A DNA stretch of 64,000 nucleotides, from assembly GCA_963920665.1 (NCBI GenBank), contig OY987265.1, forward strand, positions 20,217,001-20,281,000. The letters are read 5' to 3'. Each line of letters starts with the position of its first letter. Position 1 is the first letter of the stretch. Under the pieces are notes generated by a model that saw only the letters and a program-made list of their open reading frames with translations, was not told where the DNA came from and did no database searches. Positions 29,356 to 56,712 of this stretch are shown piece after piece. Made by a program: the position numbers and the translations under genes. Origin of the DNA: Straminergon stramineum (Eukaryota > Streptophyta > Bryopsida > Hypnales > Calliergonaceae).

Positions 29356-32300
29356 ATGGCGAAAGAGCAGGAGCGCGACGACGCACTGATCTGGATGCTT
29401 CCCGACGAGAGTTTGCTCGCCGTGTTGGCGCATCTGACGGACTGTTGGGATCGCCAGGCCTGGGGCTTGGTGTGTCGGAAGTTCCGGCACCTGGAGGCTG
29501 TGAGTCGGAAGTACGTGCAATTGATGCGTTCTGAAATTCTGGAGCCCGTGTTGCGACGCCACCCCAACGTGGAGCGTCTGGACCTCTCCTCGTGCGTGGA
29601 AGTGAAGGACTCGGGCCTGGCGACGGTGGCCAAGTTCGCCAGCCAGCGGCTCCAGTCGATCAAGCTCATCAGGACGAAGGGGTTTGGGGCTGTGGGAGTG
29701 AGGAGCCTGGTGGATTGTATGGTTTTGCGAGAAGTGGATCTGTCGTTCTGTAGTCAAATTGGAGATAAGGAGGTGATTGCGCTGAGCGAGCTGCAGCGTT
29801 TGCAGAAGCTCAAGCTCACACAATGCAGGCGTGTCACGGATGTCGGGTTGTCTGCTCTCAGCAATTGTAAAGAGCTCGAAAATCTGGGGTTGAAGCTCTG
29901 TTTGGGGATCGGCGATGGCGGCATTCAGAATGTGGCAACCGGGTGCCGGCAGCTTCGCAATATTGAGCTTTCGTTTACTGAGGTAATTGGGCTTGGTTGC
30001 AATCATTTAGATACGTCACTTTTGGAAGTGAAATACGGTACTTCGTATGGTCAACTAAGGTCTTCGTTGTGAAAAGTAATGTCTGCTTGTCAATATGTCA
30101 GTCGCACGAGAATCTTCTTTGGCTTGTTTGATGTGCTAATATTGCTTGCATTTCTGAAATAGGTTTCAGATAAAGGGCTGGCCTGCCTCGCCCTTTTGCA
30201 GAAAGTCGAGTGTCTCTGTCTCATATCTTGCAACAATGTGACAGACGAGGGCCTCAAAGTTCTTAAGAGCGGATGCTCGACGTTACAGGTGCAGCTCTGG
30301 TTTTTTGTCCGTAATCGCTGAATTTGCAATTTTGTTGTAGTTTTTAAACACAAACTTCCCCTTAAATACAAATTACAGTTTATATCATTTACTGAAAGAG
30401 TTTGAGTATTGCGATTCACTACAAGCTAATAACAAAAGCTAACGCTAAGCTTGAGCAGTGCACGAGGGTTCCATTGAAAAGTAGCCAGAGATGAAGCATA
30501 ATATAATCTGTTTTATAAGTTCGATTCGGCAAACTTGTTAAATGGAACTAGTTTGGCTCGTTGAACCACAGTGCTCGCATAGATTTTGACCGTTAGCTTT
30601 CAAAAAAAAATACTAGTAGCGAAGGCTGGGCCCATTGAATCCCGTGCATCGGACCTGTACAGACCTGTGCAACTGGGCCCGTTTATTCCCATGCACATTC
30701 ATCACGTAGGTTACAGCTCACTTAGATTATAAAGTGGCTACTAAGATGTAAATTGATCAGCGTGACCGTTAGGTTATGATGTAATTTGTTGAAAGTGAAC
30801 AATAAGATTCAGTTGAGTTGAGTTTACTTACTAGAATTTGATTCTAAGGCGGAGTTGAAATTTTCAATCATCCCGAGAGGTGCTTCTTCTATTGTAATGT
30901 TCTAGCTTTCTCACGACCTCCTTAGTGCAAGTGTTTATGAGCTCTGCTGACTCTTGAGTTGGTGTGGTGTACGTACCCTGTCTGTTGCTTGTTATAGAGA
31001 CTGGATGTGGCAAAGTGCTCAAATGTCAGTAGCCATGGTATCATCGCCTTGACAGATAGCTCAGTGCAACTTCAACAACTCGATCTCTCGTTCTGCAAGC
31101 TGGTACGTGATTTTCTGTTCATTGAATGATTTTATCAAAGGGTCGCAAATTTTGCAAGTAATGAGTAATAATCTGGTGGTTTTTAAAGCTTGTCTGGGTA
31201 TTTGTCTATTTCCTACTGCCTTGGGAATTAGTGAGTAACACCTATTGTTTTTTTCGTTTTGGTGGTTGGCAGATCAGCAGCTTGCTGTTCAGTAGTCTCC
31301 AAAAATTTAGGATGCTGCAGGTTATTAGGCTGGACGGCTGTACCATCGGGGAGGCCAATTTGAGCCTGATTGGCAGTGGATGTGAAAAGTTGAAAAAGCT
31401 CAGTTTGAGCAAGTGTCAGGGTGTGAATGATAGTGGTGTTGTGGGTGTCGTCTCGGCCCGCACTGGTCTGCAAAGTCTAGATCTTACCTGCTGCCGAGAC
31501 ATTACAGATGTAGCTTTAGAAGCTATTGCAACAAATTGCCGGGGCCTGCGGAGCTTGAAAATGGAGAATTGCCTTTTAGTCACAGCTAAGGGCCTGGTGT
31601 CAATAGGACAGTTTTGCCTTTCTTTGGAGGAGCTTGATCTTACAGACTGCAATTTAAATGATGATGGTAAGAGCTTGATTTGCTATGCAATCTTGTTGCA
31701 GCATGTGTGCACGTAATAATATTGTTGGATGGAGATTACGTAAGTGTGACTGTAATATAGTTTTCACTGAACGATCGCATGCAATTGAAGTTCTTGTTTA
31801 TTAGCTTATTTACATTCAAATTCCCCTGCCTCAAATACCGTAACCACTGTAAATATTCTTCGTTAAATTGTGCTTTGAATGCTTTTGGAGTAGTAAGGAC
31901 CTGGTGAATGGAACTGACTGCTTGTGTGGCAGGGCTAAAATCAATTGCTAGATGCACCGAGTTAAGGCAGTTAAAGATCGGCTACTGCGCGGATATCACC
32001 GATGCTGGACTGGTGCACATTGGTGCTACTTGCAAGAACCTGCAGGAAATCGACTGTTACAGGTTTGTCCTACACTTGAGCAGGGATGCATTCCTCAATA
32101 TTCTCGTTTTCAGGATCTTTGCTGCTAAGACATAGTGTCGAGTGTATAACCTATGTTGTGGCTAACTGTGATGTTTCACATTAATGTTGTCTACGAACAA
32201 CAACCTCATGTGAAGTTCTGTGATAAGCGTGCACAAGGTCTTAATTATGTTATGATTCCATTAAGATCTTTAGTATGAGCAGAATGCACTATCTGTCTCT

Positions 32301-40655: not shown

Positions 40656-43380
40656 ACAGTGCTTGGCAAGCCATATTTACTATAGGAGTAGGTCTAATAA
40701 ATTCATTAGAAAAATATGAATTCTCTAGAAGTTGTATCTATATTGGCCAAATGTGCAAATACAACAAAAAGTGAAAAATTAAGAAATTAAAAATTTGAAA
40801 TAAAATATGAAATAAAAAAATTATGTATCATGTCATTGCCTTAGGTGCCACATCAAATTGCAATTTGAATTTTTGAATTTTGAATTCTTTTTTCTTAAAA
40901 CATATTCCTTAGTTTGTTTGTTTTTTCAATATTTTTTTATTTCTTGTGTTTGCACATCTTGCCAAAGAAAAACAACCTTCTAGAGTTTAGATTTTCTCTA
41001 ATGAATATATTCCAAAAAAAATCCAAAAAAGATTTTTTGTCAAAGACTCACTCATAACCCAAACCAAGAGACTTGAGCTGTCATTGAATAAAAAAACAAT
41101 GTGTTTGGCCATGAGGTTTCAAATTTTTTTGCACATCCTACAAAGGATCCATTTTCAAGATTGAAAAAATATAACCCATATTTGCACATGAATATGCAAG
41201 ACTAACGCTATCATTCTCAAGATATTGAAAAGTAACTAGAAGGGGCTTCCAACATGTTTGTTGACAAAAGCATTATCCAATAATTGAAGTTAAGCCTTGC
41301 AAAGGAGAGAAATTGCAAACAAATTGGGATGCACATACTATATCTTTATGAAGAATAGCAATTGAACCATGATGATTTTGGAAAATTTGTCTAGTTCACC
41401 ATATCCACAACAAATGAATTAATCAAGGTTGCATCAAAAAAATATAATAAGTATACTTGCATTTCTTTTGATAATCAATCATATATTTTGAAAGACTTGT
41501 ATTCATGAAACTATACATGTTTCAATTACATGATCCTATTGTGGTCACTTGTAAATATCACTTCCATACTCCAAATTGTCATTGTCACATTTGAAAAGTT
41601 CTTGTAGCTTCATTCATTAAAACAAAAAAAATTTAGGTTTTAAACAAGGCCACAATGGGATCATTCTCAAAGTGTAAAAATAGTGAGGAAGTCACAATAG
41701 GGTGGCTTGGCTTACATTAGATGTACTGAAACTAAAAGTCTTAATTACTTACATTGGTTTTGTACATCTTTGCAACAAAAGTCATAGAGATGAATTAACA
41801 ACTACTTTTTGGTAAATTTACACCAAGGGATGAAAGGTTGGAGTATAAATTTGTAGTCCTACATGATTAAGAGAAGAATAAAACACAACAAGAGGATAAA
41901 TAATCCCTCCGAGGATATGAATTTTATTCTTACAAAGAGGCAAATTTAACCTTCAAGAGGCAAGCAAGGATTCAAAACACCTCACTTTCTCATAGAAATT
42001 AAACTTTTTTATGATTTTGTTCTATAATTGAATCATTTTAAAGATTTTTTTATCACATGGGGCAAATATATCATTTGAGAGTCTAAGATTTACTCTATAT
42101 GCAACATGAAGTCAGAGGGTAGAAATTTACCTTTTTTGCCACTAGTTATTTTCTTTAGACTTGTGAATTCACTACCTATTTTCATGAACCTTAATACACC
42201 TTGTTAAAATTGCTTCATATTTTTGCAAAATTTTTAAGGATTTAGGATTTTTTGGCTCGTTTCAAATATTAGTAAATGGATAGGTATATATGAATCCTAA
42301 TTAATTTAATGATAACTCAATTTTTCTCCATTTGCATTGAATATGTGCAATAAATTTTTAATACTAAAATAACAATAAAAAATTGTTGAAACTACCATTC
42401 ATATTTCAAAGTGCCATTGTATGAAGTTCCAAATACAATAAAACAATTGAATTATCCTAATGCTATGAATTATGCACCCAAATTTTTTTTGATTTAAGCA
42501 TATTTAGATTTTTTCAAATTTGCAAATGTCATATTGAAAGAAATCGTTGTTTTGATTTTATGGAAGGGACTCCTCTATTGTTGTAAATAATGATACTAAA
42601 CCTAAGTATTTGTATGATCATTATAATTATATAGAGACCTCTCTATGAATTTTGGATAAAAGATATCATATATATACACAGATTCTTGAAAAAATAAATT
42701 TTCATCCAATCAAAACTTCATAGTTTATTTTGAAACAATTAATGCATACCAGATGATTAAAATCTATAATTACTTCATAATGCTTTCAGCCAATTTCAAC
42801 TTTCAAGTGCCAAGAACTTGTCTTTGAACATACAAACAAGAAAAAATTACTTGATCTTTCAATTTGTTCAAATGTGTGTGTATTCAAATATAAAAATTTC
42901 TTTTATTGTTGAACATTGTTAATATCATCTTAAGTCCACTTCTTCAAGGATCAAATGTAATCTTTGCATCTAGTTATTGCTAAGTAAACTTTGATCATAA
43001 ATTTCAAATCAACGAACTTAGAACTCATCCAAATCTCTAAAAGAAACATCTAGATATTTAGTTATATTCCTATTGGTCTTTGTTTTTTTAATAGACTTGT
43101 TTTATTAATAACATATTATTCAATTTGCAAATGTAGAATTGTATGATGGTCTTATTTTTGAGTGCATAATTTACAATCATAATAATTAGAAAAAAATACT
43201 AGACAAATCTAGCTAATGCATCATGCAATTCCAACACACTATTCTAAACTTGATTCCATGGAAGATGTGAAAACTTGTCAATTAAATTATTTGTACAATT
43301 TCTTGTGCAATTAGCTTCATGACTTGAATTTATGTGATTTGAAATATTTTTAGATTTGTAATCCTTGTCAAAATATAATT
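40656..43380. other. AT-rich intergenic DNA, nothing recognised
   Basis: Very AT-rich with no long frames and no paired ends that I can see. Confidence 0.45.
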
Positions 43381-43583
43381 AGAGGAGATTTCAAGCCCGT
43401 AGAGGGCCGTTTCAGGCATGTTCCCTTTGTCGTTCCCAATGCAGTGAAGGAACAACTAGTTGTTATTAGAAAAACTTAAATGAATTTTAAAAAAACATTC
43501 TGAAATTGAAAAAAAAAAGTAACAAAAAAAAATTAATTAAAAAAAAATGACATGGCCAAACTTTGGCCACATCCAGGGTTGCT

Positions 43584-43630
43584 AAAATATGAGCAGGGAG
43601 CAATGAGCGTTGAGCGTTGAGCATTAAGCA
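43584..43630. repeat. left subterminal repeat block
   Basis: AATATGAGCAGGGAGCAATG is followed by tandem TTGAGCG/TTGAGCA/TTAAGCA 7-mers. The inverted counterpart is at 56340-56378. Placement about 200 bp from the left end and 110 bp from the right end suggests transposase-binding sites. Confidence 0.65.
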
Positions 43631-46600
43631 TTTTTAGAAGAACATTTGAAAAACTTCTAATTTTTCACCATAAGATGCTCATGTCCGTGATTTAGGGTAA
43701 AAACATATGGCTATAAATTCCTCTAAAAGGATGAATGGTGATGAATGGTGATGAATGGAGATGGATGGAGTTGGATGATTTTTTTTTGTAGTTGACTATT
43801 TTGGATGAAATACATTTATTGTTCATGCCATTGGATGAAAGGAATTTGGATGATTGTTGGATAGGACCAAAAAATTAGTTGTTTAAAATTAGGATAAATT
43901 ACCAAGTACTTTACATCCAAGGTTTAGGGTGACTTTTTGGAAACTAGGGTTTGATATTCATAACCTAATATGAAACCATTTTTAGGAAGGTACTATTTAT
44001 AATTATTATTTATAATTCCTTTAAAGAATTATTGAAGTTTACAAATTTATTTCTATATTAACACCAACATTTACAAGTTCTAATTACATGTGTAATTCCA
44101 TTTAAGAAAAGCGGCATAGTGCTAATTGAAAGAAACAGATTCTATTTTTAGAAATTCTTATAATTGACCTTTTCAACGTAGATGTCTTCCAACTAGATTG
44201 GATGTTTTTTAGAATGAAGATGACCTTTACTGTCACACACCAAGGATGACAAGAATGCAAAATCACTCAAGAATAGAAAAAGGTGCAAGAATGTAGTGGC
44301 CCTTTTAGTCTCACTACATGATATTAGAAAATTAAGTAACAACAATAGTGTTTAAAACAAGATCAGTTGGACCCAATACCACACATGGGAGAAGAATGAT
44401 CACTGGCTTCACTACTATCACTACATGTAACCCCTGGTGTCTCGACATCTGCTTCAAGGTCTAAAAACTTCTTGACAGCAACATTGTATGAATGATGTTT
44501 GACAACAGAAATAGGTGATGGAGCCTCTGCCATAGCTGTCGCTAGAGTTTGGATGTAACATGGCAAACTCTTGGGACTAGGAGAAGGCGAGGGCACAAGA
44601 TGTCGAAGAGAACTGCCTCTACAAGGTGCAATGAATGAACAATTAGAAACCTTAAAGAACTTTTGAGATATTGCATAAAAAAAGAAAATTAAGACATGAA
44701 TAAGAGCAACAACCAACTTACTTACAGCAACGTCTCTTCCACGGCCTTGCAAAAGGCTTTACAATGTCATCATCATCAGTATCATCCACCACTATAGATA
44801 GAGGGCGCTTGGTTTGGATGGTGGCAGTAGAAGGAGGTGTGTTCAAAGGTTGAAGGATAGCTTTGAAAATCTCACTATCGCTCTCCAAGGCCACCAAATG
44901 ATGTCCAATATTGCGGCATGCATGGATAGAGGCCTATTCATTGAATGCAACATCATTAGTTAGAGCAAATATATTACACACAATGTAGTAAAAATATGGT
45001 TTAAATAATGATAATTGTCTAATGAAAAGTACCTGTAGATGCATAACAGTCTAGCACCACATCACCAGGTTTTGAAAACGCCTCAATTAGTAGTTGTACA
45101 AATAGAGGATCCTTTTCACGGGCACCTCTCCACGGAACTGCACCATTCATGAGTTGAGTCTGTAAAGAGGTGAAGTTGTGGAGTAGATCCACTTCTTCAA
45201 GGTTTGTCCCTGCATTGCTTAGTTGTTGATTGACATAGATAGAGAATTTAGATACCACTGATGTTTCCTCCCATTTTTTTCTTACAAAAAGAAGGATCCG
45301 AAAGCGCTGCGACTGCCAAATATAAACAAGTATGACAATTAATATTTGACAAATACAAATTTACTACAAATGGGTTCAAGCATCCAAAAATTATAAATGA
45401 AGGAAATTTCAAAGAAGCTTACCCAATGTTTGGATTTTTTGTAACTAGAAAGCTTCAACTCATTCATGCCCATCCAAGAGTCAAGTAGACGAAAGCCATA
45501 CGTATCAGCATGCTCAAGTGTAAATTCCTTCACCTTTCCATTCTCTGGGTGGAACAACAAAATTGCTCCATCATCATGAACATATTCTGAAGCAAACTCA
45601 AAGATGGGTTTAATAACCTCTTCTTGATTCAACACATTCCAAATAGGAACATGAGAAGGTGGAACCGAGATGTTGGACACTGGTAGTCCATCCGGGATAT
45701 CAGCAACAATCAAATCAAAACATGGACCAGGGTTAACGTTGCCTCCAAGAGTTCGCACCCGCTCTCTTCCAACTTGACATTAAAAAATGCACACTTTTAG
45801 ATGTATGAATGATTTGCAATGCCATGCTTATAATTTAATATAAAAGTGAAATGAAAGAATTAGAAGAAGGCTAACAAGCATAGATCTTACTTTTTTTGCA
45901 AAATGAAGCATTTGATCCCATGCTGATGCATTGTCTCCTGTCTTCTCTTTGACACTGAGCATTGCAGAAATCAATGATGGTAGAATTAGAGCCTCAGGCT
46001 CAATACCATGTCTATCAGGTTGAACTGTTGACTTGGCTATGTACTCTGATGAAGCAAAAACATTTGTTGTAATGGACATAAGAGTTGGAGGGCAATGGGA
46101 GCGAGCTTTATCAATTACTTCAAAAGTAGGAGGCACAAGAGAAGTAGGAAGTGCAAGAGCAGATGCTAGCACAAATGAAGAGGGGGTGTTGTCCTTCTTT
46201 GTAGTCTCTTTCACCATCTTCTTCTCCTTTAGCTTGCGCCCCTTCTTCATTGGTGCAACCTCTTCAACCTCCTCTTCTTCATCTAAAGACTCATTCTATG
46301 TGGTTGTTTTGGAATGGTCTTTAGCAGCTTCCTTCTCAAGTCTTTCAAGTGTTGGGGCGAAAATCCTTGGACACTCTAGGTACCAAGGACAAGCTTGAAG
46401 TTCTTGGTCAAAAAAACCCCGTTATTGTGTCAAAGTGAACATGCAACCTTTTAAAGACGTGTCAAGCCATCCCCTAAAAAGCTTGGGCATGAATTTCCTC
46501 TCAATCCCACCTTTATGAATCAACTCTCGTTTGAAATATCTGCAATCATAAAATAAGTTTGGTTATTGCAATGAGAGAGATACAAATGAGATTATTCTAT

Positions 46601-48849
46601 GGATTTGTAAAGCAACTCAAATATACAAAAATAAATGTAACTAAAGTAAAAGATATACCTGTATAGAATCCTCTTCAAAGCAACATTTGTACCCTCCTGC
46701 TCTTTGAAAGGTGTAGACCTTGAATATGAAGAGTCCTTCTTGAAAAGCCACCAAAAAGCATGATCCCATAAGACAATGCGCCATGTCTCCACATAAGGAC
46801 CAATCATGTCCAACTCATCGTTGGCACTCCACTGAACCACAATATTCTCAGACTTGGTGATGCTTGTAAATTCAGCTATGGCTGCCTCTTCTAACTACAA
46901 AAAAATCAAGAAATATAAGTATGAAGACATTGTTAAGGCATAGTATATCATGGTACAACAATGGGATAAGAATCAAAATATTTATAGTCTCGAAAAATGA
47001 AAGTATTGAAAGAGAAGCTTGATAACATACCTCAGCCCAAAAAGCAGCCTTAGAGAGCCAAGTCTCTAAGGTCAATGTGTTGAAACCAAAGGAAGGAAAT
47101 CGGAAGCCCTCTCTAGAGGTCTCACTAGAGTTCCACCACTTGAGCCAACGAACCTTATGGTTTGATTGAACTACACATGTAGATATCCTTTGAAGTTTCT
47201 CCAATGACATCTCGGGCTTCTCAGTGGCACTATAATGCAAGTTAATTTGAAATTTCAAAGGACAAAATTATAGTCGAAACCAACACTAAAGTAATCATAC
47301 AAGTCATTCATTTACAAGGAAGTAAGCAAACAAACAAACAAACAAAAATATATACCTCTTCTAGAAATCCAATGCCATTTTTTGGATTTGCAATAGTAGA
47401 CTGCTTATCAAACTCTGTTCGAAATCCCTTGATAGCTGCAATGGAAGCTTGAATCATGGCATCATGAACTCCCTTTGGAGTACGATCTTGCACCTGTGTC
47501 TTCTCATAATATGTTCGCACTGCCGCATCTGAAATAATAGCGATCTCTTGTTGCACACGAGAAATAAAAATTTAAAATCAATACAAAAAGAATTCTACAA
47601 ATTATCAAAAATGAATGAATAAATTAAACAAACATGAAACACTCACCCGATGAAGGAATTGTATGAAGACGTTTGACGTCAATGGATACCAAGCACCTGG
47701 TAGTTTTCTATTCTTGCATTTCTTGTAATCCTCATCGCTTAGAAGACTCTTGAACTCTTCTAGTTTCAAATTGCCATAAGTACTCATCCTGTGCAATTGT
47801 TGAACCAAATTGCTCTTGACATGGAAATACTCTGTAGACCTTCAAATACCAATGGAAGTAGAATGTAAGATGAATGAATTTGAAGACATGGAATATTGCA
47901 ATACATTCCAAGAAGTGGTAAAGTAAAGAAGAACTTAGTTTACCAGAAATTGAAACTCACCAATTGATGTCATTCATAGCCTCCAATAGAATGCATGTGC
48001 AACCTTCTGACATCAGAAGCATACAATCAACGGGCAAATGCCACTTGCGATCATGACGATGCATCCTGTGTATGTAAGCATACCAAGCTGCCAATCTATC
48101 ATTGCCATCCCATACAAAAAACATATGGTTTGACAAATGTGAGATGGATGGCTGAGACTTTAACCAACATTCAAATTGGTCATTCTCTTGTATCCAGTGT
48201 TCATCCCATGTCTCCACGATCTCGGGGGTCACTAACTTACAAAGTCCCTTGTCATTCGTTGTAGACACATAAAGCACACAATCCCCTTGTCGATATCCAT
48301 GTACAAACTCAGCCTCCAATCGTTTGACTTAACTTTGAAGGAGAGGACGCACCAACGGAAGCCCAATCATCCTACACAAAGGAATATCAAATCGGGATCC
48401 TGTCCCACCACCATTGAATAGTATACTGTTGATGACAGTGTTGGAGTCAAGCTTTTGACCATGTCGTACATCGTGTTCCACCTCTTCTACCATTCGCCCT
48501 TCAAAAGCTTGAGTAGCACTTTTACTTCCAACAGTATTCTCAACCTACAATGAATGGTATATTGAAAATAAATTGTAGTTAATACTATGAAGTCATGGAA
48601 AAACAAAGCAAATTGAATGACAAGTATGATACAAGAATGGTTGATGTGACATAAATCCAAAGAGAATTGGAAATGTATCAAACCTGAGGAATAGTAACGA
48701 CAATCTCAAATTCATCATTGATGTTGAGCCGTAGCAGGTCTACTTGTGTAAGCCCTCCATCGACATCCATGAAACCCTGTTTTAGAAAAATTATAAAACA
48801 TGCATACTAAGCTTGTATTGTCCAAGTGAAATACAAAAGAATCAAAAAT

Positions 48850-49850
48850 TGAGACCTTATTAACAAGGCCATATTCTATAGCTTAAACCAGCAATTGAAA
48901 CAAGAATTGGAACCATACACCATAAACAGGAACTGTCTAAGTGAGACCCAAATGAATTGAAAATTGAGGCCTCGTTAATGAGGCCATATTCTATAGCCTA
49001 AACTAGCAATTGAAACAAGAATATAAACATAGAACATAGACATGCATTGTCTAAGTGACACTTAAAACAATTAGAAATTTAGACCTCGTTGACAAGGCCA
49101 TATTGGACAGCCCAAGCGTTAAATTGAAGAAAATGAATTGGAACCACACCTCCAAACATATATGGTCCAAGTGAGACTTAAAACAACCGGAAATTCAGAC
49201 CTCGTTGACGAGGCCATATTGGACAGCCCAAATGCTAAATTGAAGAAAATGAATTGGAACCACACCTCCAAACATATATGGTCCAAATGAGACTTAAAAC
49301 AACCGAAAATTCAGACCTCATTAATGAGGCCATATTGGACAGCCCAAGTGCTAAATCGAAGAAAATGAATTGGAACCACACCTCCTAAACATGTGTGGCC
49401 TAAGTGAAACTTAAAACAACTGGAAATTTAGACCTCGGTGACAAGGCCATATTAGACAGCCCAAGTGCTAAATCGAAGAAAATGAATTGGAACCCGACAG
49501 CCTAAGCTTGTACCATTGGAGTGAGATAGAAAACAATCGGAAATTGAGACCTCGTTGACGAGGCCATCTTCTACAACCTAAGCAAGCTATTGAGAAGAAT
49601 TTTAAAAAGCAACTAGAACCATGCACCCTCTAATTATAATGTCGGAATGAGACCCTGAATACCCTAAAATTGATGCCTTGTTGATGAGGTCATGTTCTGG
49701 AATCCAAAACAGCAATCGGAAGAAAAAAAATTTGAAACTTGCAACTCAATTCGTACTATTTCAATGAGAAATGAAACATCGCAAGATTGGCGCCTCGTTA
49801 ACGAGGCGGTATTGTATAGCCTCAGCAAGTAGTCTAGAAGCTAAAAAGTG
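48850..49850. repeat. ~117-bp tandem array with palindromic core, nine units
   Basis: Nine diverged units occupy the intron between the exons ending 49855 and starting 48776. Each carries a 14-bp core like CCTCGTTGACGAGG followed by CCATATT, at about 48855, 48971, 49083, 49200, 49315, 49433, 49551, 49674 and 49792 (spacing 113-123). Several units also share AATTGGAACCACACCTCC. The core is a dyad: CCTCGTTAACGAGG and CCTCATTAATGAGG are both perfect palindromes differing symmetrically. Confidence 0.85.
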
Positions 49851-50496
49851 GCACCTGTTGAGGAGTTTCGGTGGCTTGAGGAGCATCAACGCCTTCGATG
49901 CATACAGGGACACCCTCCCCGCCTTGATGGACACCCCTCCCGCTCTCGCCGCACTCCTCTCCATCCTTCCGCTGCAGCACGGCACTCCTTAAGTTCATCA
50001 TAGAAGCAACAACAAACAATGCGCCCAAAAATGCAACAACACAAAACGAAGAGAACTACAAAAAAGCCAATCCTAGGCTAACTAGCAAGTTGATCTTGGG
50101 TTTAAAAAAAAAAAAAAATAAGGAAGAGATTGGTAGATATAGGGCAAAGGAATCTTTTGATTAGATTTTGCGATTTTGAAGATTTCAAGTCCAAATTTTT
50201 GGGGCACATAGATTATAACCTTAGAACTCACCTCAATTTTTCCAGATTTTTTGGACTCACGGTCAATTGTACAAAAATCGTCAAAATCCTCTAAAAATAC
50301 ACAGGCAAGATTTGGGTGAAAATTCTTCTGATTCTCAAGATTTCAGAGAAGATTCCAAGATGCTGAATTTGTTTTTAGGCCATAAAACATTCAAAAACAC
50401 TCCATTTTTTACATGCTATATACCGTTGGAATCCTCTTCTCAGAATACACAATGTAGTGTGTAGTGTCAAATGCACCTCTAACAAATAAAAACATG

Positions 50497-50826
50497 TAAG
50501 GTAGGAGGCTCAAACTCCGTTAGGGCATTTTGAATCGCCCACCTCTCAAATGTACACTATCTGTACATGGGATTTTTTCATCTTTACATGGATGTATCAA
50601 TTGTGTACATTTGAGGACAGGGGCGATTTTAGAGCCTTCTACCATTTCAACTTCAAAAAATCATAACTAATTCTACAAAGCTCAAAAACATATGAAACAA
50701 CTTGGGTTAGATGTCAATTCCTCTTGTCTTCCAAGGAAAATTTACTGAAAAATATTTCAAGAAGTTTCACCTCCCCTAAATTCAGTTTCAGCTCTTAGAT
50801 GGATGCTTTATGGACCTCCTACCTTA
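50497..50826. mobile_element. small TIR/foldback element in the methyltransferase intron
   Basis: TAAGGTAGGAGG at 50497-50508 is matched by its complement at 50815-50826. A tighter foldback lies within: GTAGGAGGCTC from 50501 pairs with GAGCCTTCTAC ending 50642, and CTCAAATGTACAC (50545-50557) pairs with GTGTACATTTGAG (50603-50615). It is either one 330-bp element or a 143-bp one with a related outer copy. It is non-coding and sits between the first and second exons. Confidence 0.55.
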
Positions 50827-51192
50827 AATTCTACTCCTCTCTATCTAATGAATGTAGTTCCAACAATAAATAGATGAACTTACCAACTGTATGCTTCTTA
50901 CCGACATATTGTTCTCTGGAGGGCTTGATTGACGTAAGTCCTCTCCACTTTCATCCACACTATCAAGCTTGGCAATATCCATTCCTTTACTATTTTGTGT
51001 CAAACTATCCCCACACTGAAAATGCCCAACTTCAACTTCAAGATCTTCATAGGACAAGGTCCGAACAATGCTACTAATCTCAGTGCCATTGACCTTCTGC
51101 AAGCGTTTAAACATCTTTGATTTCTCTAATTGCTTCTTACTACAAAAAAGAAGACTAGCCTTACGTCTCTTTTTACGAGAACCCTCTAGCAT

Positions 51193-51749
51193 CCCTCCAA
51201 CCAAAAACACTACAACAAAACTAATTCTACTTCTTCATTGCTAACTTTGCAATCTCTCCAATATATATCAATCTTGGAGGTTGATGAACGTATTCTCATC
51301 CAATTTATTAGAGCTTCTCATGACATAACGACATCTACTCACTTGAACTCCAATAGACACTAACAACCCTTTTTTGCTCAACTGCCTCACAATCACCCTT
51401 ACAGTTCAAAATATCAATCCTACATTGAAAGAGGCCTCTATTTGGTGGCTTCTAATGTGCCTTCATTTGATCATCTATGAGTGCGGCGCAATCTACAATT
51501 AATAATTCTAAGGATTGTGTAATGGTAATTGAAATAAAATAATTGAATTGTTGGACGGACATAAAATCCTTAAATGTAGGCTTCTCAATTCAAATTTCAA
51601 ATCACTAAAATCCAATATAAAACAACCAAAATCTTTCTCTTCCGTCTCATTGTCATCTAGGTACTATGACAAAAAAAGCTTTTGGATTCCCCCATGTAGG
51701 CAAGCAATAACATTCACCAGGACTTTATAGATTGTATGTAGATTCAAGT
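51193..51749. promoter_or_regulatory. shared upstream region of the two divergent transposon genes
   Basis: The 557 bp between the two predicted start codons must contain both promoters unless more upstream exons exist. I see no unambiguous TATA pair. A 60-codon frame at 51548-51730 (+) has no domain and may be leader sequence. Confidence 0.4.
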
Positions 51750-54700
51750 ATGGACATGGCACTTGTCCGTGGTGACGGGTCTAATATTCCAATTTCATTT
51801 CCTTGTAGCGATGATGGTGTAGCATGCATATCTGCATTGATTCTCAGTATTAGGTTCAACTTGGAGTTGTCTTCTTTATAGGTGGAGGAAGAGATATTCA
51901 ATTCCGAGGGAGTTCAAGTCATATCTACTGTCATGCTACCGAAGATCAAGAATGACTCAGGAATCATGTGGAAGCTTTCCCCAGGCAGGTACCATACTTT
52001 CAGTACTCCAAGGGTCACTAGGTCAATGTCAACAGAAATTCTCACACCCGGATCTACAACCTCTACTGTTCAGATGTCTTGGGGAACTTGTATAAAGGTA
52101 GAGTCTCCAAGTTATAACCATATTGATCTTACAGAGTCTTCCGATGATGATGTTGTTGTTATCATTGATGAGAATCCCAAGCTCTCTACCATACTTGAAA
52201 AGTGTGAAGACACTCTATTCGATGTGGACAACATTGAGCATGATAGCACATTGCATCCTTCTGTTCATCAAAGGGAAACTAAATTTGTGAGCATCTTGGA
52301 GTGCCTTAGAGATATGCAGAGTCATCCATGTGCTCGGAATGAGTTGAAGTTTCTAAACCTCAACGCACTTCGTTGTGAATCTGTTTGACATCTTCCTCAA
52401 TCATTTAATGGGGATGTATTTTTTGAGTTACCTCCTCTTCCTTCTTCCTTTTCCCTTTCCGGAACTCGACCCAGCTCAAACTCTTCATCTTCTATAGGTT
52501 GACAACTAGAGGGCATGGACCGTAAGTTTGATGGACACAATTGGACACACACACACACCACTAATATTGCGAATGACTTTGGCCTAAAGTTCCGCTACTC
52601 ATTGTATGTAGGCCACCTTGTTTGTGAAAACAAAGCATGCCCTAGACTACGGCGCACCAGCAACAAAAATGAGACAGAGTGGGAGGGGTCATCACCTACC
52701 ATCTTTGTTGTGGGAAAACAATCACCAACAAAGTCTAATCTAATATGTCGGATTTGTAAGGAAGTTCCTTCATGCAAAGCTCAGTGTCCTTGTCGTATGT
52801 ATAGGGTCTTGAACTCTTTAGGTCTTCCTAGAGCTTGTATCCATGTTGGTATTCACAATCATCCTATGGGTAAAGGCATTTTTCGCGATTCTGTTGATCA
52901 AACATCTTTGATTAGTCAAGAAGTATCAAAGACACCAACTGCGACAAATTCAGCCATTCGACTTGCTGCTAGTAAGGAGTTTCTTGCATTTGAATTGTTT
53001 AGAGAGGAAGGATTACAAAGTGACCGAAAGCCCCTCCATGGAGAGGCCCTTGAAGCTGTCATGGAGAAATTCAAGATACTTAGTTCTCCGAGTATTCGAA
53101 ATACCATCTCAGGTTTCCGTCACAGTACGAATGGAGGACCCATTGACAACATTATCTCATTGAAAATGAGAAGTGCTTACCCTTTTATTCAAGATAGCGT
53201 TTTTCCAAGAGAAGGTAAAGAGAAGGTTTACCTTTTCAAGATGTCTGAGGAAGGTCCAGGAAGCAGAGTGGACTTGGTAAGGCGAATGCAACCTGGTGGA
53301 GACTTGTAAAACTCTTGGTGCATGTTTGATCATGTGAAGAGGGTGAAGGGATGGACATTGATGGCTGCCGATGTTTACGATCCTGAGTTTTGTCGAGTTC
53401 AAACTATCTGCGTCTACGACATGATGAATGAAGATGCTCGGTCACAAGAGCAAATGTGGAGATCCCTTAACTCCATTATGGCGCGCCATGGGATTTCTTC
53501 TCCAAATTTCAAGGGTTTTATGGCTGACAACACAATGGCCAACTGGCATGCTGTTCATGTGGTATATGGAAGTGGCAACAAGCAAGAGCCAATGCAAGAT
53601 CGGGAGCGCTCCTGTCTACTTCATTGGACAACATCGTTGAATAGACACACTGAGAAGCTCATTCGTGTAGAGTTCCAAGAAACTCACAAGATGCTTTGTA
53701 AACAATACAAAGATGCAAAGTCGATGACGGAAGTGGAAGAAAGATATTTAGGAATCAAAGGTTGGTGGCTCTCTTCAAGAGCTGCATTAGAGGACCCTCT
53801 TTGAGAATTAGATGATTGGTTGGGTTTCTGGCACTTCTGATATCGACAATGGGGTGGATTTCTTGAATTGGTAAGGCATATGCCTCCTCAAATTTCTATT
53901 TCCCTTTTCAATTGGCCTAATTTATATTCACTTGCAAGTTCTTTTAATGTCCAAAATATATGTGTTTTCTATTTTTTTGTTTTCCTTCACATGTACAGAA
54001 TTTGCACAAATTTGAGCTAAATACTCAAACTTCATAGTACTAAAATTAGACTTTGGGAACTAAGAAAGCCTTACCGCACCTCTCAAAATTGTTGTTGTTG
54101 GTGTAGAACTTGAACTTAGAGGAGCTGGCTGAAATGCCTTCATACAACTTGGTAGAGACAGTTCACAACAAGTGGTTGCAAATGTCTGGGAAGAGGGGAA
54201 CTTGCTTATATGTCGCCACCACGGATGACATGATGCATGCTATTCAACAATCAACAAATTATTGGGCATACCTCCAAGGGTATGCATCCGGCACAGGTCC
54301 CCACTTGGATGAACTTCGCCTTCGAGCTGCAAGACGAACCAAAAATCCAGCACAATTTGTCGAGGCTATCGCCAAATTACCAAGTGCTCACCTATTCATT
54401 ACGCGTGTTCCCCATTTAGAAGGTGAAGAAGTCTTTGGATCCTGAAAGCGCAAACTAAATCTACCACCTGGGTCAGATGGTGACTCTCATCGCCACGATA
54501 CAGTGAACTTCTCTACACCAAAAGTTTAGACTCGGTCAGTAAGAGCACGTACAAAAGCAGGCGCATCAACACCAATGCCAATGTTGATACAAGAAGCAGA
54601 ACCAAGTACAATACGCCCTCACGCTACTAAGGTACTTGAAACAAATTGCAACCCTTCTCTGTGGCACATTGCTAGGTGTATGAAGGAAGGAAAGACTTGT

Positions 54701-55306
54701 CACGGAGTTCAAGTTGGAATGAAGAAGAAATGTGGGGCCAAGATAAACAAGGCAAACAAGAGTGGAACAACAGCACCTACCTACAACGGCCGCATGACAA
54801 AATATGGAACCAAGGCCATTATAAACTTTGATTTCTGGTTTTGCTCAAACGACCTCATGCGTTGCGTAGGAGGCTCTAAGGTGAAGTGGGTTCATGACTG
54901 GCCTCCTCTTCCAAATGTTTGGCCTATTGCATGTGGGACACATCTCACCAAATCAGAGATCCTTTCTTTAGAGGAAGCGGGTTTCCAATTGCAAACTAAG
55001 AATATAGATGAACCATCGCTCCACCTCTTTAATGAAGAGAGTACAGGGAGAGGTCTGTCCCTCCTTCACTCGAAGCAACTAGATAGCAATCTATAACCAT
55101 CTAACGGTGACATGCACCCCACGAAGCGATTGGGAAGGACCATCCGGCGAAACCCTAATGCGCCTACAGTTGACCACCGCAACAAATGGGAGACTGCACG
55201 AAACTTAAAAGCTGTCATTCAATCTGTAGTTGTTATTCCATACCCTGGTTATGGTAGAGTGATTTCTCTAATATCTGGTATCTTACCCTACCAAAAGGTC
55301 TATTGA
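51750..55306 (+). pseudogene. Mutator-like transposase with WRKY/GCM1-type zinc finger, decayed
   Basis: Two exons (51750-53870 and 54107-55306, GT-AG intron, phase 0) give one frame of about 1,106 codons with no frameshift but nine in-frame stops: 51879 TAG, 52386 TGA, 52500 TGA, 53307 TAA, 53802 TGA, 53838 TGA, 54443 TGA, 54527 TAG, 55094 TAA (first base given). An acidic N-terminal part has IDLTESSDDDVVVIID. From ~52600 LVCENKACPRL (C-x4-C) and later GIHNHPM (H-x-H) resemble a WRKY/GCM1 zinc finger. The catalytic core has ADVYDPEF (first D, ~53368), GFMADNTMANW (second D, ~53527) and, after the intron, NLVETVHNKW (~54140), like the Mutator E region. A conserved-looking C-terminal domain (FDFWFCSNDLM, WPPLPNVWPIACG) is unassigned. 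It would have mobilised the surrounding element. The start is the first ATG in frame; upstream exons cannot be excluded. Confidence 0.78.
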
Positions 55307-56339
55307 ATCACAATTTCGGACTTCCCTGCTTGTACCTGAGAAGACTTCATCACCATGAGTACAGTTGCACTTGGTAGTAGGAAATCATGGGTAAATTGCA
55401 AGCATTTGTATTATGTCTTTAGGTTCATTTGTAAGGCAAACTCTAAGGACAACAAGTATATACATGCACCAAGTCTGAGCTTTGATGAAGTGAAGCTACT
55501 TCTTGTAGGTAGCAATCTATAAGATATTATATATCTGCCTTGTAGTAGATAGTAAAACCACTTATGTTTAAAGGTGGATATAGAATTGTCAATTGGAGTA
55601 GTTGCAAAATATCCCTAATCCTAATTAGATTGAGGTGGAAATAGTTCATGACAACCCAAGGACCACTCAAATCATATGTGAAATCATAAACATCAAAAAA
55701 AGTATATAAGAAAGAGGTTGAATTCAACCAAACAACAGTATAGGATGAAATGTTACAATTCTACAAATGAATGATGAAGGTGCTCCTCAGTTTCAAGGAG
55801 TACTTCACCAATAACCATATCCCAACAACATTATACGATTGATTATTAAATATCTCCAAATAAACCTTCAAAGTGCTCTTTGGTTCTAAAGAACACTAAA
55901 CCAACCTCAAATTATTTAACAAAGTTTTGAAATAAACAATGCAAATTGTAATAATTTTTGTAAATTAATATTTTGGGAAAAATGAAAAAATGAAAAAGGC
56001 ATTTTTTAGGAAATGTACTACAATAGTAGAGTGTGAAAAAAAGTCATTTTTGGATGGATGATGGATGGATGATTTGGATGAAGTTCATTTATACATAAGA
56101 TCTATAGTTGTGAAATCATCTTGTTGCAAGAAATGCTAGTCCTTCATTGATGCCCTTCATACATCATTTGATTGCAAATTGATTATTTTGAATAAAACTT
56201 ATGCAAAAAAACTTTATAAATTTTTCTATTCTTCATTTCTAACATTACTAAATTTCAGTCTAACAAGCCTATTTATTACTCTGACATGTCTATTTTTAAT
56301 AAATATCCTCATAGTGAGTGCTCAAATCTAATCTTTTGT
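55307..56339. other. right non-coding part of the 13.1-kb transposon
   Basis: No exons are seen. GGATGGATGAT-type short repeats near 56054-56080 resemble GATGAATGGTGATGAATGG-type repeats near the left end (about 43731-43775). Confidence 0.45.
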
Positions 56340-56378
56340 TGCTCAACGCTCAACACTCATCGCTCCCCACTCATATTC
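56340..56378. repeat. right subterminal repeat block
   Basis: The inverted counterpart of 43584-43630: GCTCAACGCTCAACACTCAT, then CGCTCCCC and CTCATATT. It supports the transposon boundaries independently of the outermost TIR. Confidence 0.65.
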
Positions 56379-56712
56379 TAGCGTCGTTGTGGCCACATTA
56401 GACTACTACTACAATCTTATTGTAGTGCAATTCCCATGTTCCTTGTAGTCCGAGAACTTGGAGTCCTCCACGGGCTTGAAATATCCTCTAATGAATGGAT
56501 TAAATGAAATTTAGAAATATTCCATATACTTTTAGGAATAGACATTTAAAGCACATATTGCCAAAATCTTCAAATCAAATTAAATTTTAAAATTGCTTTA
56601 TGATGTATATTTATATAATTCTTATATTAATTATTATTATTAATAGATTTTATCCCTATCATTCAATGAGTGTTGACATTCTATCTAAAATCTAAATTTT
56701 GAATGTTTTAAT

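Follow-up and report, generated by a model that had tools for sequence, protein, structure and literature searches.

What does a DNA-methylase-like gene do inside a Mutator-like transposon, and where does this transposon begin and end? The question is raised by a 64-kb window of Straminergon stramineum (contig OY987265.1), the whole stretch of DNA analysed here, and all coordinates are positions within it. A preliminary description had placed two divergent genes between inverted repeats, and both gene regions are present, one transposase-like and the other methylase-like. The repeats are also there, as an outer pair (43378–43405 and 56465–56492; 28 nt, 93%) and a subterminal pair (43581–43623 and 56340–56382; 43 nt, 88%). 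The window copy is a decayed two-gene Mutator-like (IS256-type DDE) DNA transposon; it is dead, and both genes carry in-frame stops.

Limits of the element

The outer 28-nt repeats are the termini of a MITE of ~289 bp, many copies of which lack the two genes. Their sequence gave at least 40 scored matching places among 61 candidates, its own place counted. These termini are thus found around unrelated DNA elsewhere, an outcome that the preliminary description had itself named as speaking against its proposal. When the element was excised in silico and the flanks were joined, a single unbroken MITE was obtained, which aligned across the junction with copies elsewhere (7 MITE copies matched in total; end-to-end alignments were inspected for L004–L007). 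Moreover, homology of one sister copy (C10) to the window covers exactly 43574–56389, and that of a second (C9) covers 43575–56389. A two-gene element was inserted into an older MITE, making a 10-bp target-site duplication (TSD). The features of this nested structure are as follows.

43378–43573, forward strand: left part of the host MITE, including the formerly proposed left terminus 43378–43405 (from inverted repeats, copies and junction alignment)
43564–43573, no strand: left TSD copy, TGGCCACATC (10-bp length taken from the C9 copy)
43574–56389, no strand: whole ParB/methyltransferase-bearing Mutator-like element (from the homology limits of the C10 and C9 copies)
43574–43623, forward strand: left terminal inverted repeat (TIR), CAGGGTTGCTAAAATATGAGCAGGGAGC.., with GAGCGTT subterminal repeats (from the inverted repeat and sister copies)
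56340–56389, reverse strand: right TIR, CAACGACGCTAGAATATGAGTGGGGAGC.. (from the inverted repeat and sister copies)
56390–56399, no strand: right TSD copy, TGGCCACATT, 9/10 identical to the left one (10-bp length taken from the C9 copy)
56390–56492, forward strand: right part of the host MITE, including the formerly proposed right terminus 56465–56492 (from inverted repeats and junction alignment)

Since the sister elements match only from 43574 or 43575 to 56389 and the MITE rejoins, the TA on both sides, formerly read as the flank of the element, is the flank of the MITE. The 28-nt repeats do lie at near-symmetric distances around the element, as the ends of a 13.1-kb transposon might; however, they terminate a MITE that occurs without the genes, and two sister elements lack them yet have their own TIRs and TSDs, so that outer ends of this kind were rejected and have practically no chance of being real. 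The 10-bp TSD is conserved at 10/10 positions in C9, 9/10 in the window and 8/10 in C10, which are all three copies with both ends read, and its length falls within the 8–11 bp of MULEs. TIRs, another MULE property, are represented by the 43-nt pair, with the same ends in C10 and C9. The left TIR was found at five further ends in distinct flanks, among eight stretches examined; a search for TIRs in the C2_31.8 and C5_13.99 elements gave none.

Two divergent genes

The coding regions are arranged as follows.

51711–53873, forward strand: first coding part of the transposase, with several in-frame stops; a Cys/His-rich region and the DDE core lie within 52515–53873
54107–55519, forward strand: later coding part of the transposase, whose end shows a degraded SWIM-like region (WVNCKHLYYVF, read by eye)
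45891–48776, reverse strand: predicted accessory exons E3–E9 (ParB-like region and middle part), with two in-frame stops in E9 and borders set by eye: E3 48684–48776, E4 47961–48544, E5 47647–47839, E6 47356–47546, E7 47031–47229, E8 46659–46894, E9 45891–46539
47961–48544, reverse strand: exon E4, with the ParB-like motif region (FFVWDGN[HD]R.AAW; ParB by motif only) and one in-frame stop
44363–45772, reverse strand: accessory exons E10–E13, beta-class DNA-methylase fold by sequence profiles: E10 45423–45772, E11 45033–45312, E12 44726–44933, E13 44363–44618

The transposase has an IS256/MULE-type fold, the RNase H-like DDE domain related to IS256 that is expected of MULEs. No Pfam match to a transposase at E ≤ 10 was obtained for two family members, nor for 4 of 77 relatives, and the profiles are perhaps too narrow. 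A putative SWIM-type finger (CxC...CKH) was recognised by eye in P0003, L053 and L054, with no Pfam SWIM match for P0003.

The accessory gene is multi-exon and divergent to the transposase. Its product unites three parts: the ParB-motif region, a middle segment and a DNA-methylase fold of the beta class. Sequence profiles give the amino-methyltransferase fold of this class with its motif order IV ... X, I: motif IV is read as 'VADIPDGLP' in E10, X/I as '..VVLDCYASTG' in E11, and 'ASIHAC..VALESD' follows in E12. The E11/E12 junction as drawn does not keep the reading frame. The Pfam match of the accessory protein is a DNA methylase, and its Pfam matches include no dioxygenase of the TET/JBP kind. 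The ParB-like region is labelled from its GNHR-type motif only, and nothing credible for ParB was obtained from Pfam, PHROGs, NCBIfam or PDB profiles; a single-sequence AlphaFold model of this domain was unusable (pLDDT 33). Elsewhere, a single relative of the accessory protein was obtained, from the fern Adiantum (E 3.7e-6, 22% identity over 76%). An alignment search found no accessory relatives among the 7997 candidates listed and missed the Adiantum protein too. Pattern matches (28 in viral_contigs and 33 in genome_contigs) yielded 0 confirmed relatives, and no phage match was found for the ParB-like exon.

A divergent transposase lies beside the accessory gene at 9 of the 11 loci read upstream of this gene, in 7 subfamilies; at the other two, C7_0.38 and C1_15.35, reading 8.0 and 9.9 kb upstream of the accessory gene revealed none. 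This recurrent pairing bears out the earlier proposal of a methyltransferase-like gene as a lasting transposase partner. The exon pattern is conserved among relatives, and pN < pS between subfamilies indicates purifying selection on the accessory gene, methylase exons included. In the C2_31.8 element the mapped exons of this gene have 0 stops. The accessory gene belongs to the element family as a component that recurs and is under selection, and is not a chance fragment. Titles and abstract openings of the open-licence literature searched contained no description of a ParB/methylase MULE.

Arrays of palindromic sites

The 5′ part of the accessory gene contains a feature that had gone unmentioned earlier and is the best functional clue.

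48811–49840, no strand: tandem array of nine units of ~116 bp in the 5′ non-coding or intronic portion of the accessory gene, with GCCTCGTTAACGAGGC-like palindromes starting at 48854, 48969, 49083, 49199, 49315, 49432, 49549, 49675 and 49792

Clustered palindromic sites occur in non-coding DNA of 6 of the 9 subfamilies, and these clusters, which parallel the anti-silencing system of VANDAL/VANC by analogy, are new here. The sites are 16–18 bp long and fall into four sequence classes, three restricted to one subfamily each and one common to three, and all classes have a TCG half-site core; the counted patterns were derived from the very sequences counted. The palindrome class differs between clades of the accessory gene, and in a single element with exchanged genes the palindromes agree with its accessory-gene relative. 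They are located in introns and intergenic DNA and are absent from the TIRs of the window clade. The C2_31.8 element has 13 sites, and in C2_31.8 and C2_24.14 the sites are surrounded by sequence of low conservation (unit means of 0.55 and 0.58, for units chosen via the palindrome itself, the window excepted). Single palindromes are frequent: the detector gave 37 matches in the window element and 115 in 43 kb of the window outside it. Compact clusters were not found in three subfamilies (C3_12.57, C9_1.80 and C7_0.38), nor were clusters in the 3.5–4.7-kb pieces L033, L034, L037, L038 and L047–L052. Tandem duplication is able to multiply a chance palindrome.

Possible roles of the accessory protein

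By analogy, we suggest a MULE whose accessory protein is self-targeting and would read the palindromes of its own element and counter silencing, and we give this reading as a whole a probability of about 0.5. Palindromes together with a methylase-like gene suggest a helper protein, possibly supplied by the element itself, that reads its addresses and perhaps lets it escape silencing. The accessory protein would bind the palindromes as a dimer, and because they are bound it would recognise its own element family. Through such recognition the protein may maintain or establish the element's capacity to be transcribed and to move despite host silencing, in the way that VANC acts for VANDAL MULEs. 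SAM or DNA is the probable ligand of the methylase fold, which may have lost its catalytic activity. The three subfamilies with no compact cluster and the two accessory genes with no transposase in view speak against self-targeting, as do the frequency of single palindromes, the possible multiplication of a chance palindrome by tandem duplication, the derivation of the patterns from the sequences counted and the want of ParB profile matches.

In the accessible parts of PMC5735166 and PMC10398659, VANC anti-silencing proteins of Arabidopsis VANDAL MULEs bind motif arrays and remove silent marks of their own family. Both systems may be likened as a Mutator-like transposon with an accessory gene and motif arrays in non-coding DNA; the likeness is by description, and the present protein differs from VANC in its ParB-motif region and DNA-methylase fold and in its putative sites, which are 16–18-bp palindromes with a TCG core. 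Fungal DNA transposons carrying TET/JBP, thought to aid escape from methylation-based silencing, also combine a DNA transposon with a DNA-modification-related gene; however, theirs is a dioxygenase rather than a methylase fold, and MULEs are unlisted among the lineages (KDZ, hAT, EnSpm and others) in the accessible part of PMC12730594. Dinoflagellate and charophyte retrotransposons likewise carry a DNA-methyltransferase-related gene, a C5-cytosine DNMT with demonstrated de novo CG methylation (PMC5890265, accessible part), whereas the fold here is that of an amino-methylase with a non-canonical catalytic motif, on a DNA transposon. With other MULEs the element shares the two-gene plan and the 8–11-bp TSD, and its putative SWIM-type finger would correspond to that of many groups; the accessory ORFs covered in the accessible part of PMC6446971 (mudrB, mutB, vanB/vanC and a SET domain in 14 Phytophthora elements) include no ParB or DNA-methylase.

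A helper of transposition (mudrB-/mutB-like), bridging or positioning DNA, with architectural palindromes and no role in silencing, is possible although on the unlikely side. Recurrent pairing and divergent orientation agree with it, as do those second ORFs of MULEs whose role is either unclear or in DNA binding (PMC6446971, accessible part), but palindromes in introns and intergenic DNA rather than at the window-clade TIRs do not, nor does the gene-exchanged element whose sites fit its accessory-gene relative.

An active methyltransferase marking element DNA, e.g. adenine or N4-cytosine at or near the palindromes, seems unlikely. The beta-class motif order, the DCxASTG...ASIxAC region retained in most members and purifying selection on the methylase exons would suit such an enzyme. 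However, the catalytic form of motif IV (D/S/N-P-P-Y/F/W) is absent from all 12 sequences read (11 plus P0001), which mostly have D-x-P-[DE]-[GNE] with the outliers DRQEN, DYQEN, DISDG and DFPTG, and the first glycine of DpnA motif I is a serine in this family. Because motif IV is non-canonical in 12/12, the protein is not classed as an active DNA methyltransferase; the earlier idea of an enzyme that marks DNA is, as worded, not supported.

Bacterial ParB/parS systems combine a GNHR motif with palindromic target arrays. The present GNHR-type motif and palindromic arrays are similar, with ParB assigned by motif only and parS likened by description, but here they belong to a eukaryotic transposon. 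It is conceivable, though doubtful, that the element is a self-addressed epigenetic module, a mobile eukaryotic ParB/parS counterpart plus modification enzyme, in which the ParB-like/methylase protein would read clade-specific intronic arrays and enzymatically write or remove a DNA mark, the address code changing as elements split.

A host or foreign passenger (Pack-MULE-like), with palindromes as by-products of tandem duplication, is disfavoured and very improbable: MULEs often capture genes (PMC6446971, accessible part), arrays vary between subfamilies and three of nine have no compact palindromes, but selection, the conserved exon pattern, the adjoining transposase, the little-conserved flanks of C2_31.8 and C2_24.14 sites and the TCG core common to all classes all oppose it.

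If the self-targeting accessory protein reads the palindromes and is unrelated to VANC, Mutator-like elements would have reached the same solution more than once, namely an accessory protein coupled to changing motif arrays in non-coding DNA of the element; the self-addressed module, if true, would likewise be a second solution beside VANC. A DNA-methylase fold would then have been put to use in self-recognition, and protein/palindrome pairs would become available for targeted plant epigenome work. Sequence-specific self-recognition, if this holds, would be a wider MULE strategy beyond the special case of Arabidopsis.

Borders of the element and its host MITE

The 28-nt outer inverted repeats that the preliminary description took as the ends of the transposon are present (43378-43405 with 56465-56492, 93%), and an inner pair lies at 43581-43623 with 56340-56382 (43 nt, 88%). 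Search of the genome (326 Mb, 59 contigs) with the outer repeat and its inner neighbourhood gave at least 40 matches, counting its own (of 61 candidates, 40 were scored), and 32 of the 39 other scored matches begin at query base 29, which is window 43378. The two window flanks of the element were then joined, with the 9 bp that they share included once. The resulting 289-bp sequence aligns across the junction with MITE copies elsewhere, and therefore the outer repeats are the termini of a MITE, with the big element nested inside. Seven MITE copies matched the reconstruction (L002-L008), and end-to-end alignments were seen for L004-L007.

Features of the window
43378-43573 and 56390-56492: MITE of a ~289 bp family with ends ATTAGAGGAGATTTCAAGCCC, host of the element insertion
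29356-30072: ORF of 238 aa in the GC-rich 28-34 kb, resembling by eye a plant F-box/leucine-rich-repeat protein; likely a host gene

The sister copies on contigs C10 and C9 are 92-97% identical to the window element in main blocks, and homology runs from 43574 (C10) or 43575 (C9) to 56389 and no further, giving an element of 12,816 bp. Left ends are mostly CAGGGTTGC or TAGGGTTGC, and right ends are GCGTCRTTG. Of the 10 bp flanking each end, 9/10 agree in the window (TGGCCACATC/TGGCCACATT), 10/10 in C9 (CTCTGAGAGG on both sides) and 8/10 in C10. Among eight additional stretches, the left end was seen in five with flanks all different (L056, L058, L060, L061 and L063), whereas no match came from L057 or L062 and only an internal one from L059.

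The second gene and its transposase partner

The second gene, laid out by eye, has eleven exons (E3-E13) on the minus strand with GT-AG borders, in a model whose first exons are uncertain and whose E11/E12 junction as set breaks the frame; nine or ten of these exons are present in other subfamilies in unchanged order. Its C-terminal part matches Pfam N6_N4_Mtase (E 5.9e-5, below the curated cut-off) and, in PDB, DpnA (9e-4), MboIIA (0.016) and CcrM (0.061), and all four second-protein members compared match PHROG DNA methyltransferases. By these matches the C-terminal part is a predicted DNA-methylase fold of beta-class order. The ParB-like label is based on the motif FxxDGNHRxxAW, with no ParB profile support in any library searched.

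It is possible that the second protein is a mark-writing enzyme, but the form of motif IV counts against this. Most sequences have D-x-P-[DE]-[GNE], with DRQEN, DYQEN, DISDG and fern DFPTG as outliers. Because DPPY/F/W was found in none of the 12 sequences read, including the fern protein P0001, we do not call the second protein a working methyltransferase. P0001 (Adiantum capillus-veneris, 866 aa) is a relative over most of the second protein, reads 'FIDFPTG' at motif IV, and has a gene model apparently without the GNHR stretch.

The ParB-like exon has at least 151 matches in the genome (150 of 746 candidates scored), and among matches listed many at 37-45% identity are stop-free. At C7:10594018-10609172 (L012, L013), two inverted exon copies with equal scores lie ~14 kb apart, perhaps as an inverted duplication. 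From the match list, 11 loci, named here by contig and position in Mb, were chosen for reading of upstream DNA. A divergent transposase was found at nine of them, representing seven subfamilies: the window, C10, C9, C2 31.8, C5 13.99, C3 12.57, C2 24.14, C9 1.80 and C3 35.46. None was found in 9.9 kb upstream of C1 15.35, a stretch almost wholly tandem array, or in 8.0 kb upstream of C7 0.38. Stops per residue are higher in the transposase than in the second gene in 7/9 elements, which may perhaps reflect unequal selection after insertion. At C5 13.99 (L053/L045/L046) the transposase has 6 stops and the second gene 0.

In 11 between-subfamily comparisons covering the ParB-like region, the middle and the methylase part (the last missing for C2 versus L033), pN was 0.13-0.48 and pS 0.61-0.88. 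Raw pN/pS was 0.15 to 0.70, and true values should be lower because pS is saturated. Ratios of 0.39-0.92, as expected for dying copies, were obtained for four close pairs (window, C10 and C9 among themselves; L046 with L047). Transposase and second-gene distances are correlated (Mantel r 0.81, 9 elements, 1 of 5000 permutations), also with one element per subfamily (r 0.48, 140 of 5040). At two decimals the second gene is more divergent in 16/21 subfamily pairs, less in 3 and tied in 2, in a comparison whose aligned parts are unequal in length and choice. C9 1.80 has the transposase closest to that of C3 35.46 (0.30), whereas the C3 35.46 second gene lies at 0.47-0.49 from C2 24.14, C3 12.57 and C5 13.99 and at 0.60 from C9 1.80; these discordant relatives indicate exchange of genes between elements. 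The two genes of this element (L068+L050) come from different clades.

Palindrome arrays

Palindrome sites per element (patterns of the first three elements were derived from the DNA in which sites were counted)
Window: nine ~116 bp tandem units with GCCTCGTTAACGAGGC-like palindromes; 9 sites (≤4 mismatches), shuffle mean 0.05
C2 31.8: CTCCTYGAAATYRAGGAG, 13 sites (≤2 mismatches), shuffle mean 0.0; 19 sites (≤4), shuffle mean 0.75
C5 13.99: ACYGTYGGATCCRACRGT, five sites (≤1 mismatch), shuffle mean 0.0; again five (≤5), shuffles 3.95, so that the strict count alone is telling
C2 24.14: largest detector cluster 8; coding DNA 0/10 sites, coding share 0.40
C1 15.35: largest cluster 31 (289-bp array); coding DNA 0/31, share 0.15
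C3 35.46: largest cluster 5; coding DNA 0/18, share 0.30

Mapped coding DNA holds 0/27 sites of the first three elements. A single palindrome detector was applied to six additional elements, and its clusters (shuffled maximum 1) were present in the last three of the table and absent from C3 12.57, C9 1.80 and C7 0.38, bringing palindrome clusters to 6/9 subfamilies. Scans of a 3.5-kb C7 0.38 piece and of the downstream pieces of the other elements gave no clusters; by eye, separated CCGAGGAG/CTCCTCGG half-sites were recognised in an 86-bp array of C7 0.38. Control DNA gave largest clusters of 1 (three 14-kb slices of the window that lie beyond the element, each scored separately), 1-2 (seven MITE neighbourhoods) and 2 (first 43 kb scanned as a single stretch). 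Within the palindrome-array intron of the C9 copy (rc(L055+L042+L041), ~6.7-10 kb) lies a mobile-looking insertion with long ORFs, with 6 and 11 palindromes on its two sides.

Six palindromes compared with eleven elements (≤3 mismatches) gave a block-like table, in which the window, C2 31.8 and C5 classes are restricted to their own clades save one cross-match. The C2 31.8 class has one match in its sister C7 0.38, and a CTCTCGG class is common to C2 24.14, C1 15.35 and C3 35.46. A TCG half-site core is common to all four classes, and 43 kb of other window DNA gave 0 matches to the six palindromes at the same threshold. Palindromes are more conserved than the unit mean (0.90 versus 0.55 in C2 31.8, 0.91 versus 0.58 in C2 24.14), with little-conserved flanks, in units picked via the palindrome; in window units, which were not so picked, 8/95 stretches are conserved as much as the palindrome or more, the palindrome itself counted. 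In the single case of C3 35.46, the class fits the second gene: it is that of C1 15.35, the closest second-gene relative read, and clusters are absent from C9 1.80, the relative by transposase.

Comparison with known systems and proposed role

PMC5735166 and PMC10398659 describe the VANC protein of Arabidopsis VANDAL MULEs as binding short, family-variable motifs that are tandemly repeated in non-coding parts and guide the removal of silent marks. The moss elements have the same plan. In contrast to that system, their sites are palindromic and their second protein combines a ParB-like motif with a predicted methylase fold. TET-carrying fungal transposons (PMC12730594) and DNMT-carrying retrotransposons (PMC5890265) are the nearest cases with DNA-modification genes, and our search of open-licence literature found no paper on a ParB/methylase MULE. 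We infer both the step from arrays to binding and that from binding to function. Most likely, the second protein would recognise its own subfamily by reading the palindromes, and would then counter silencing or otherwise support mobility.
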